From positions 1-61,960 of the forward strand of contig NZ_WANV01000011.1 of assembly GCF_015521605.1 (NCBI RefSeq): a DNA stretch of 61,960 nt, written 5' to 3'. The stretch is from Thermococcus sp. Its GTDB lineage: Archaea; Methanobacteriota_B; Thermococci; Thermococcales; Thermococcaceae. Positions 11,046-53,546 of this stretch are shown here, one piece after another (position 1 is the first letter of the stretch; each line of letters begins with the position of its first letter). Position numbers and translations under genes: made by a program. The notes below the pieces were generated by a model. The model was not told the origin of the DNA. It worked only from the letters and a program-made list of their open reading frames with translations, and ran no database searches.

Positions 11046-11061
11046 ATGGAAAACTTTAAAT
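11046..11061 (+). promoter_or_regulatory. BRE/TATA promoter of trpS transcript
   Basis: ATGGAAAACTTTAAAT has a purine-rich BRE (GGAAAA) followed by TATA element CTTTAAAT at 11054-11061. Initiation about 25 bases past the TATA centre is expected near 11083, giving a roughly 97-base leader for trpS and placing the ATG of the mini-ORF at 11085 essentially at the 5' end. Confidence 0.65.
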
Positions 11062-11084
11062 CCCCTTCTTACATTTCTCTTCCC

Positions 11085-11114
11085 ATGCGCGGTGGTCGTT
11101 TTTGGCCTTGGTGA
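11085..11114 (+). CDS. Candidate leader peptide with two Trp codons (MRGGRFWPW)
   Basis: A nine-codon ORF, ATG to TGA, encoding M-R-G-G-R-F-W-P-W, lies in the 5' leader of trpS. The last sense codons are TGG CCT TGG, followed by TGA. The predicted transcription start is about two bases before the ATG, so it would be read as a leaderless ORF. Two Trp codons and a Pro at the end of a tiny ORF ahead of tryptophanyl-tRNA synthetase suggest a ribosome-stalling sensor of charged tRNA-Trp. This is an inference from position and content; no peptide has been shown here. Confidence 0.45.
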   Translation: MRGGRFWPW

Positions 11115-11142
11115 AACCCCGCTCTTCTGCCCCGGCTTAGCC

Positions 11143-11193
11143 ATGAGTTTCGTTTCCACTGGAAATGGAGGTGTTTTGAATGGACGACTTTAA
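11143..11193 (+). CDS. Second upstream ORF overlapping the trpS start
   Basis: ATG 11143 opens a 16-codon ORF (MSFVSTGNGGVLNGRL) that runs through the trpS Shine-Dalgarno sequence and ends at 11193, 14 bases inside trpS in another frame. It has no clear SD site of its own. If translated, ribosomes would pass over the trpS start. It may be a chance ORF. Confidence 0.2.
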   Translation: MSFVSTGNGGVLNGRL

Positions 11194-12334
11194 GGTCACC
11201 CCATGGGACGTTGAGGGTGTAGTTGACTACGCGAAGCTGATAGAGGAGTTTGGAACCAGCCCCCTCACGGACGAGCTGATAGAGAAAACCTCAGAACTAA
11301 CGAAGAGTGAACTGCCCATCTACTTCAGGAGGAGGTTTTTCTTCTCCCACAGGGACTACGACAAGGTTTTAGCGGATTACGAGGCCGGAAAGGGCTTCTT
11401 CCTCTACACCGGCAGGGGCCCGAGCGGCCCGATGCACATAGGCCACATCATCCCGTTCTTCGCCACCAAGTGGCTCCAGGAGAAGTTCGGGGTCAACCTC
11501 TACGTCCAAATAACCGACGACGAGAAGTTCCTCTTCAAGGAAAAGCTCACCTTCGACGACACCAAGCGCTGGGCCTACGACAACATCCTCGACATCATAG
11601 CCGTCGGCTTCGACCCGGACAGGACGTTCATCTTCCAGGACAGCGAGTTCACGAAGATATACGAGATGGCCATCCCGATAGCCAAGAAGATAAACTACTC
11701 GATGGCTCGCGCGGTTTTCGGCTTCACCGACCAGAGCAAGATAGGAATGATATTCTACCCGGCGATACAGGCCGCCCCGACCTTCTTCGAGAAGAAGCGC
11801 TGCCTTATCCCGGCTGCAATAGACCAGGACCCCTACTGGAGGCTCCAGAGGGACTTCGCGGAAAGTTTGGGCTACTACAAGACCGCCGCGATCCACAGCA
11901 AGTTCGTGCCCGGGCTTATGGGCCTTGAGGGTAAGATGAGTGCCAGCAAGCCTGAGACGGCCATCTATCTCACCGACGACCCCGAGGAGGCGGGCAGGAA
12001 GATATGGAAGTACGCCCTGACCGGCGGGAGGGCAACCGCCAGAGAGCAGCGCGAGAAGGGCGGTGAACCCGAGAAGTGTGTGGTGTTCAAGTGGCTGGAG
12101 ATATTCTTCGAGCCCGACGACAAGAAGCTCATGGAGCGCTACCACGCCTGTAAAAACGGCGAGCTCCTCTGCGGCCAGTGCAAGCGCTATCTCATAGAAA
12201 AGGTTCAGGACTTCCTCACCGAGCACCAGAAGAAGCGCAAGGAGGCCGAGAAGCAGGTCGAGAAGTTCAAGTACACCGGTGAGCTGGCGAGGGAGCAGTG
12301 GGAGAAGAGCATCCCGGAGGCGCTGAAAGAATAA
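11180..12334 (+). CDS. trpS: Tryptophanyl-tRNA synthetase
   Basis: Charges tRNA-Trp with tryptophan in the cytoplasm. It is the archaeal/eukaryotic-type class I enzyme, 384 residues. The N-terminal extension (FKVTPWDVEG) typical of this type is followed by the Rossmann fold with GPSGPMHIGHIIPF (HIGH motif, about residue 83) and the KMSAS loop (about residue 255), then the helical anticodon-binding domain. ATG 11180 follows GGAGGTG by six bases. The sequence is very close to the Pyrococcus enzyme as I know it. The gene has a long leader with a Trp-rich mini-ORF, unusual in a genome where most leaders are short. Confidence 0.97.
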   Translation: MDDFKVTPWDVEGVVDYAKLIEEFGTSPLTDELIEKTSELTKSELPIYFRRRFFFSHRDYDKVLADYEAGKGFFLYTGRGPSGPMHIGHIIPFFATKWLQEKFGVNLYVQITDDEKFLFKEKLTFDDTKRWAYDNILDIIAVGFDPDRTFIFQDSEFTKIYEMAIPIAKKINYSMARAVFGFTDQSKIGMIFYPAIQAAPTFFEKKRCLIPAAIDQDPYWRLQRDFAESLGYYKTAAIHSKFVPGLMGLEGKMSASKPETAIYLTDDPEEAGRKIWKYALTGGRATAREQREKGGEPEKCVVFKWLEIFFEPDDKKLMERYHACKNGELLCGQCKRYLIEKVQDFLTEHQKKRKEAEKQVEKFKYTGELAREQWEKSIPEALKE

Positions 12335-53209: not shown

Positions 53210-53400
53210 GCAAATTACAAAGCAAAACAGGATAGCACTTTCTTAATTGTCCCAGGTTTATACCTGGACTTCCCCTGATAGTATCGAAAGTTATGTCTTT
53301 TTTCAAAGCCACTCCAAGATAGTATATGAGAAAGTCCAATCATGAGCTCCGATCGGAAGCTTTGGAAACCGTTTTAAGCCCCTCTTCCAATCTCCCCCTG
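53210..53400. other. Non-coding interval after the sulfotransferase gene
   Basis: No convincing gene on either strand. It contains CCAGG-TTTATA-CCTGG (53252-53267), an inverted repeat centred on a TATA-like hexamer, and a T6 run at 53293-53299. The hairpin may end the sulfotransferase message or act as an operator; neither is decided. Confidence 0.4.
53372..53377 (+). promoter_or_regulatory. TATA box of first C/D box sRNA
   Basis: GGAAACCGTTTTAAGCC contains TTTTAA at 53372-53377; the C box follows 31 bases later, so transcription should begin just before it, near 53399. Confidence 0.6.
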
Positions 53401-53457
53401 CGATGATGAGTGATGGGCGAACCGATTGATGAGGAAGGAAAGGTGATCGCTGAGCAA
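53399..53457 (+). ncRNA. C/D box sRNA (first of two)
   Basis: Box elements in order: C box ATGATGA (53403-53409), a 12-base guide, a D' box CCGA (53422-53425, one base off CTGA), C' box TGATGA (53427-53432), a 17-base second interval and D box CTGA (53450-53453). The D' guide complement, TTCGCCCAT, equals nine bases of the archaeal 23S rRNA A-loop as I recall it (GUUCGCCCAU), pointing to modification around C2558 in E. coli numbering. The second interval complement contains GATCACCT, which resembles the 16S 3' end, but this match is weaker. The D'-C' spacer of one base is short, so this RNA is a little irregular. Confidence 0.7.
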
Positions 53458-53485: not shown

Positions 53486-53546
53486 CCGGGATGATGACTT
53501 CAGCCTTGCCTGAGGCTCGTGATGATGGAGTGACGGACTGACCGCT
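53486..53546 (+). ncRNA. C/D box sRNA with two 12-base guides to 16S rRNA
   Basis: A textbook archaeal box C/D sRNA: C box ATGATGA (53491-53497), 12-base guide (53498-53509), D' CTGA (53510-53513), six-base spacer, C' TGATGA (53520-53525), 12-base guide (53526-53537), D CTGA (53538-53541). The D' guide complement GCAAGGCTGAA fits archaeal 16S GCAAGGCUGAA over 11 bases, placing the methyl on G near E. coli position 902. The D guide complement CCGTCACTCCA fits 16S CCGUCACUCCA over 11 bases, placing it on U1406. Both targets are in the decoding-region neighbourhood of 16S. Target sequences are from memory of archaeal 16S, not a search. Confidence 0.92.

Follow-up and report, generated by a model that had tools for sequence, protein, structure and literature searches.

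A conserved uORF in front of trpS in Thermococcaceae as a probable sensor of tRNA-Trp charging by programmed +1 frameshifting

Introduction

In the bacterial gene for release factor RF2 (prfB), +1 frameshifting involves an SD-like stimulator, a spacing of three bases, a CUU_U or UUU_U slip site and a slow A-site codon, and leads to homeostatic feedback on the very factor that decodes the slow codon (PMC5009743). A minority of RF2 genes, belonging to certain bacteria, naturally shift at UUU_U (PMC5009743). The locus described here, the leader of the tryptophanyl-tRNA synthetase gene trpS in Thermococcaceae, resembles RF2 in these sequence elements and would share the feedback, but the slow codon of RF2 is a stop codon read by RF2 itself, whereas here it would be the sense codon UGG read by a charged tRNA. 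It also differs in that the proposed shift lies in a separate uORF, so that the enzyme would not contain the trans-frame peptide, in the register of the SD-like motif, and in being archaeal and, as predicted, leaderless.

Other described systems share single elements with this locus. In the ketolide-induced ermC leader, ribosomes that have shifted frame within a uORF traverse the spacer and switch on the downstream gene (PMC5009743); there, however, the signal is a drug, which induces the shift, and the effect depends on unfolding of the mRNA, whereas the trpS leader would respond to tRNA charging and has no conserved structure. The polycysteine uORFs of mycobacteria are leaderless short ORFs in which codons for a scarce amino acid control the downstream gene (PMC9031893), although they are bacterial, concern Cys instead of Trp, and no frameshift has been reported for them. 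At the CUU_AGG_C site of yeast Ty1 and ABP140, the P-site tRNA slips +1 while a sense codon awaits a scarce tRNA (PMC5009743), but this tRNA is constitutively rare and the product is a fusion protein, not the output of a metabolite sensor in a uORF. The shift in E. coli pheL is also among the nearest cases and is judged incidental. The trp leader attenuators and the T-box of trpS have the same input, the charging of tRNA-Trp, and the same logic as the circuit proposed here; they work, however, through RNA structure and terminators, for which the present leader offers neither a conserved structure nor an Rfam match.

Results

The stretch of DNA analysed (the window) comprises 61,960 nucleotides of contig NZ_WANV01000011.1 from a Thermococcus sp., whose genome (G000, 2.03 Mb) belongs to the Thermococcaceae. 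An earlier note on this DNA had described a nine-codon reading frame with two Trp codons in front of trpS. The downstream gene is trpS as stated, its product scoring 750.6 bits with the equivalog model NF008924 (cut-off 644), and the short frame was recovered with the same sequence and at the same place. The following features, all on the + strand, are referred to below:

11048–11060, +, promoter with a BRE-like A-rich stretch and TATA box (GGAAAACTTTAAA); TATA spacing kept in 83/83 genomes
11085–11114, +, predicted leaderless uORF, MRGGRFWPW-stop; kept in 83/83 genomes, with its stop at +24 to +33 in all
11091–11096, +, SD-like motif GGTGGT; GGTGRT invariant in 83/83 genomes, silent sites included
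11100–11105, +, proposed +1 shift site TTT_TGG (slip codon Phe6, hungry codon Trp7); TTT in 81/83, TGG in 83/83 genomes
11106–11111, +, possible second shift site CCT_TGG (Trp9); Trp9 in 63/83 genomes
11104–11193, +, +1 frame after the shift site, GLGETPLFCPGLAMSFVSTGNGGVLNGRL-stop; open in 83/83 genomes, the other two frames closed in 83/83
11167–11173, +, Shine-Dalgarno (SD) sequence of trpS, GGAGGTG; kept in most relatives
11180–12334, +, trpS, tryptophanyl-tRNA synthetase, 384 aa

In the window the uORF reads ATG CGC GGT GGT CGT TTT TGG CCT TGG TGA, and 65 nt separate its stop from the ATG of trpS. The regions upstream of trpS were compared in 83 Thermococcaceae genomes from six genera in which the trpS leader is readable. 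Loss of the frame or of its Trp codons in close relatives had been named as an outcome that would refute the sensor idea, and for Trp7 no such loss was seen: the pattern ATG-N-GGT-GRT-NGY-YTT-TGG-N-N-stop (N alone being any codon) is present in 83/83 genomes and the TGG of Trp7 is invariant. Trp9 is missing from 20 of them. The uORF has 8–10 codons everywhere except in one genome (L082), in which six additional bases follow the ATG and preserve frame 0. Gly3, Phe6 and Trp7 are close to invariant, codon 2 is unconstrained, codon 5 specifies Arg, Cys or Gly, and codon 8 is variable. The stop is TGA in 73, TAA in 7 and TAG in 3 genomes and lies 47–71 nt upstream of the trpS start across the relatives, while the T at +27, with which the stop begins in almost every genome, is invariant (83/83). 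A chance origin of the uORF is excluded by its presence in every genome with an invariant Trp7 and a stop confined to +24 to +33. This comparison of sequences shows that the short reading frame exists and that its first Trp codon is important, with the second being optional. The earlier note had stressed both Trp codons, of which only the first is invariant; its observation is otherwise confirmed and strengthened.

The sequence TTTAAA or TTTATA starts 29–30 nt before the ATG of the uORF in 83/83 genomes (TTTAAA at 30 nt in the window). The base preceding this ATG is C in all of them, and a purine is first met 3 nt or more upstream. Promoter and initiator rules have been published for Thermococcus (PMC4247193, PMC5316973), and the initiator follows a pyrimidine-purine rule (PMC5316973). 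Given this rule, the TATA spacing and the C at -1, the A of the uORF ATG is likely the first base of the trpS message. Promoter spacing and initiator base fit a leaderless uORF in 83/83 genomes, the transcription start being a predicted one. At the other end of the leader, 12–13 nt lie between the first G of the trpS SD and the start codon in most relatives.

Within the uORF, the nucleotides around codons 6 and 7 are conserved beyond what they encode. Codon 6 is TTT in 81 and CTT in 2 genomes; TTC would be silent in frame 0, yet it occurs in none of the 83, and TTC is the preferred Phe codon in the trpS genes themselves (TTT at 24%). Codons 3, 4 and 6 do not vary at their silent sites. Similarly, a change of the T of TGG to C would be silent in the +1 frame and was never seen, and the first base of the frame-0 stop, which occupies a third codon position of the +1 frame, is still T in 83/83 genomes. 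As both the T at +27 and the TGG are fixed despite this silence, frame 0 is considered to be under constraint as well as the +1 frame. Two constrained frames that meet at a shift-prone site are the usual mark of programmed frameshifting. The leader has the elements of an RF2-type cassette, namely a shift-prone P-site codon that is kept against codon preference, a UGG directly after this slip codon in 83/83 genomes, and a 0 frame that closes early with a +1 frame that is open, again in 83/83. In E. coli, UUU_U promotes shifting less well than CUU_U. Codon 8 is CTT, CCT, CCC or CTC in all but one of the genomes that possess Trp9 (62/63). As CUU_U and CCC_U are known to be prone to +1 shifts, there may be a second shift site at Trp9.

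The GGTGRT motif ends three bases upstream of the slip codon, with an anti-SD register of about 6 nt as compared to 2 in RF2, and since the register differs, a push exerted by this SD-like sequence may be weaker than that in RF2. The predicted pairing with the anti-SD relies on the published Thermococcus SD consensus GGDGRD (PMC4247193), as the 3' end of 16S rRNA was not found by pattern in the assembly of the window. A product started from the TTG at +17 (-1 frame) with GGTGRT as its SD was considered as the main product and rejected, because its length is variable and several genomes have only TTG GCT-stop.

Between Trp7 and the trpS start, the +1 frame contains 0 stops in the 83 genomes, whereas the -1 frame contains 122 and the 0 frame 144, each of these two frames being closed in 83/83. 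In the window the +1 frame ends with TAA at 11191–11193, 11 nt beyond the trpS start; in 82/83 genomes its stop lies between -3 and +14 nt from the trpS start, for example as TGA-ATG or 8–14 nt past the start codon. Stop and start thus overlap or lie near each other, as in a coupled gene pair, in all genomes but one. In this exception (L055, genome G072), the +1 stop is 40 nt past the trpS start and the shift codon is CTT; it is possibly a variant or a decay of the coupling. The second uORF that had been noted at 11143–11193 does exist, but it is merely the tail of this +1 frame, and its internal ATG is not a general feature of the relatives. The spacer (11120–11139 in the window) also has two elements that are seen again in relatives across genera, namely a CTCTTCT tract rich in pyrimidines and a TTAG that supplies a stop in the -1 frame.

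When spacers were shuffled for 20 representatives of less than 80% identity, the joint probability of an open +1 frame was about 10^-8.8. Since the genomes are related, neutral substitution was also simulated along the trpS tree with the frame open at the outset, and the frame was open at all tips in 7 of 6000 runs. In the stretch from Trp7 to the trpS SD, 18 changes in length were inferred, of which only 3 disturb the frame (P 1.9e-5). As a control, sequences of comparable length ahead of the promoter were open, depending on the frame, in 27–31 of 81 genomes. No surplus of silent changes was seen in the +1 peptide (67, 57 and 57 by codon position), and a coding function for it was rejected on this ground. 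It seems that the reading of the +1 frame is conserved and not its peptide; as the peptide itself is not under selection, the act of translating this frame would be what counts.

RNAalifold did not find a consensus fold over the aligned leaders, which are nearly unstructured at 85 °C (mean minimum free energy -1.6 kcal/mol; mean unpaired probability of the SD 0.58). The T-run at 11099–11103 and the TTTCC-ACT-GGAAA repeat at 11153–11165, which had been pointed out as possible control elements, are both present, the repeat being confined to part of the family. The alternative hairpins and terminator of a trpL-type attenuator were not found, as there is no consensus fold and little structure at 85 °C. 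Sequestration of the SD by the CTCTTCT tract was considered and set aside: the two can be paired by eye, but there is little structure in this region at 85 °C. An Rfam scan of the window gave no match to a T-box or another leader element. The same scan detected two C/D box sRNAs, sR1 and sR60, at 53399–53455 and 53487–53543 on the + strand, about 30 nt apart.

Discussion

The earlier note had proposed a sensor of charged tRNA-Trp, and a conserved, apparently leaderless Trp-codon uORF dedicated to trpS across the family fits this idea. It had placed the effect in ribosome stalling or transcript folding, for which the comparison of leaders gives no support, with no conserved fold and almost no structure at 85 °C. 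Frameshifting is favoured over both, because the +1 frame and the UUU_UGG site are constrained. Judged from the aligned sequences, the leader is therefore probably a sensor of tRNA charging that acts by programmed +1 frameshifting coupled to trpS.

According to this model, the trpS message would begin with the uORF AUG or no more than a few bases from it, and ribosomes would load on the leaderless uORF. With ample Trp-tRNA, Trp7 would be decoded and the ribosome would leave at the stop at codon 9–11, 47–71 nt before trpS. UGG is slow to decode during Trp shortage. When Trp-tRNA is scarce, the A site at the Trp7 codon would stay empty while the upstream GGUGRU could pair with 16S rRNA, and the P-site tRNA, which is tRNA-Phe on UUU or, in two species, tRNA-Leu on CUU, would slip +1 onto UUU. 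The shifted ribosome would cross the spacer in the +1 frame, terminate on or just past the trpS start and might re-initiate there, so that translational coupling would raise the output of TrpRS and restore charging, making the circuit homeostatic. Coupling in archaea fades beyond about 30 nt, the data coming from Haloferax and E. coli (PMC12548453), and with little coupling beyond this distance the frame-0 stop should not feed trpS whereas the +1 stop should. The strong SD of trpS itself counts against the frameshift reading, as do the register of the SD-like motif, the weaker shifting at UUU_U in E. coli, the late +1 stop of L055 and a GTG described below.

Other explanations for the conserved leader were weighed against frameshifting. 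A GTG at +7, within GGTG, sits in the +1 frame in 83/83 genomes and could in principle start it. Frame 0 might then be translated from the 5' AUG and the +1 frame independently from this GTG to trpS, with the Trp codons slowing frame-0 ribosomes and only modulating traffic. The residues of the +1 frame, V-V/I-V/A-F-G, vary mostly conservatively or silently, which would agree with such dual initiation. However, about 7 nt would separate the GTG from the predicted 5' end, no SD precedes it, 95% of the leaderless starts in T. onnurineus are ATG (PMC5316973), and the invariant G at +6, Trp7 and the frame-0 stop would be left unexplained, which makes this reading unlikely. A classical leader peptide without any shift, in which a stall at Trp7 alters access to the trpS SD or blocks termination, would agree with an invariant Trp7 in a short uORF before trpS, and some species have hairpins at 37 °C that could involve the SD. 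Quite apart from the lack of a conserved fold and the near absence of structure at 85 °C, it explains neither the open, in-phase +1 frame nor the choice of TTT over TTC, and it is considered quite unlikely.

The near invariance of Gly3, Phe6 and Trp7 might also reflect a nascent-peptide arrest of the TnaC type, with free tryptophan sensed through MxG[GD]xFW. Since codon 5 varies between Arg, Cys and Gly and codon 2 is free while codons 3, 4 and 6 show no silent variation, the constraint acts on the nucleotides and not on the peptide, and seven residues would barely enter the exit tunnel; of all the readings, arrest is the least credible and is given hardly any weight. That the leader has no regulatory role and was inherited with one frame open by happenstance is very improbable as well: the sequences are related and their conservation is not independent, but the tree-aware simulation (7/6000), the indel test (1.9e-5) and the rate at which upstream control stretches are open argue against it.

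With the frameshift model, it is rather likely that hungry-codon frameshifting serves here as an amino acid sensor in a family-wide manner, with a leaderless archaeal uORF delivering the ribosome to the cognate synthetase gene. If true, this would be the first natural example known to us of an amino acid being sensed directly by frameshifting at a starved sense codon, and also the first control of this kind in archaea. A literature search that included two recoding reviews (PMC5009743, PMC8211752) found no frameshifting uORF that senses aminoacyl-tRNA, an absence which is not proof. Such a circuit would need no RNA folding and would suit growth at 80–100 °C, and, in a genus open to genetic work, it would provide a ready reporter with which to study frameshifting and leaderless translation in archaea.

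A trpC gene (IGPS) above the Pfam cut-off was missing in 13 of 15 genomes tested, including that of the window, so that most of these species are probably tryptophan auxotrophs, and a comparison with a trp operon was not possible for the same reason. The cassette is found at trpS in all six genera of the Thermococcaceae. In a whole-genome pattern search it was located at trpS, and the remaining matches were sporadic among the matches listed. The leaders of tyrS, pheS, hisS and cysS in 10 genomes are plain and short and show no such device (a few starts being mis-called). Among 80 trpS leaders from a sister lineage within the class and from other archaea, no common counterpart was seen beyond the sister lineage. 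In the latter (L084, L085 and L089; L157–L159 are the same contigs), the leader reads AGGTGATCTTC-TTG-GGA-TGG and contains an ORF of seven codons that is led by the SD GGTGAT, with Trp as its third codon and a stop that is conserved. A frame beginning ATG GAR CAC, -1 relative to the TTG ORF, stays open until 8 nt beyond the trpS start in 3/3 genomes. Judging from these three genomes, the sister lineage may run the same circuit by means of a -1 shift at TTG GGA TGG, or it may use a uORF started at the ATG.
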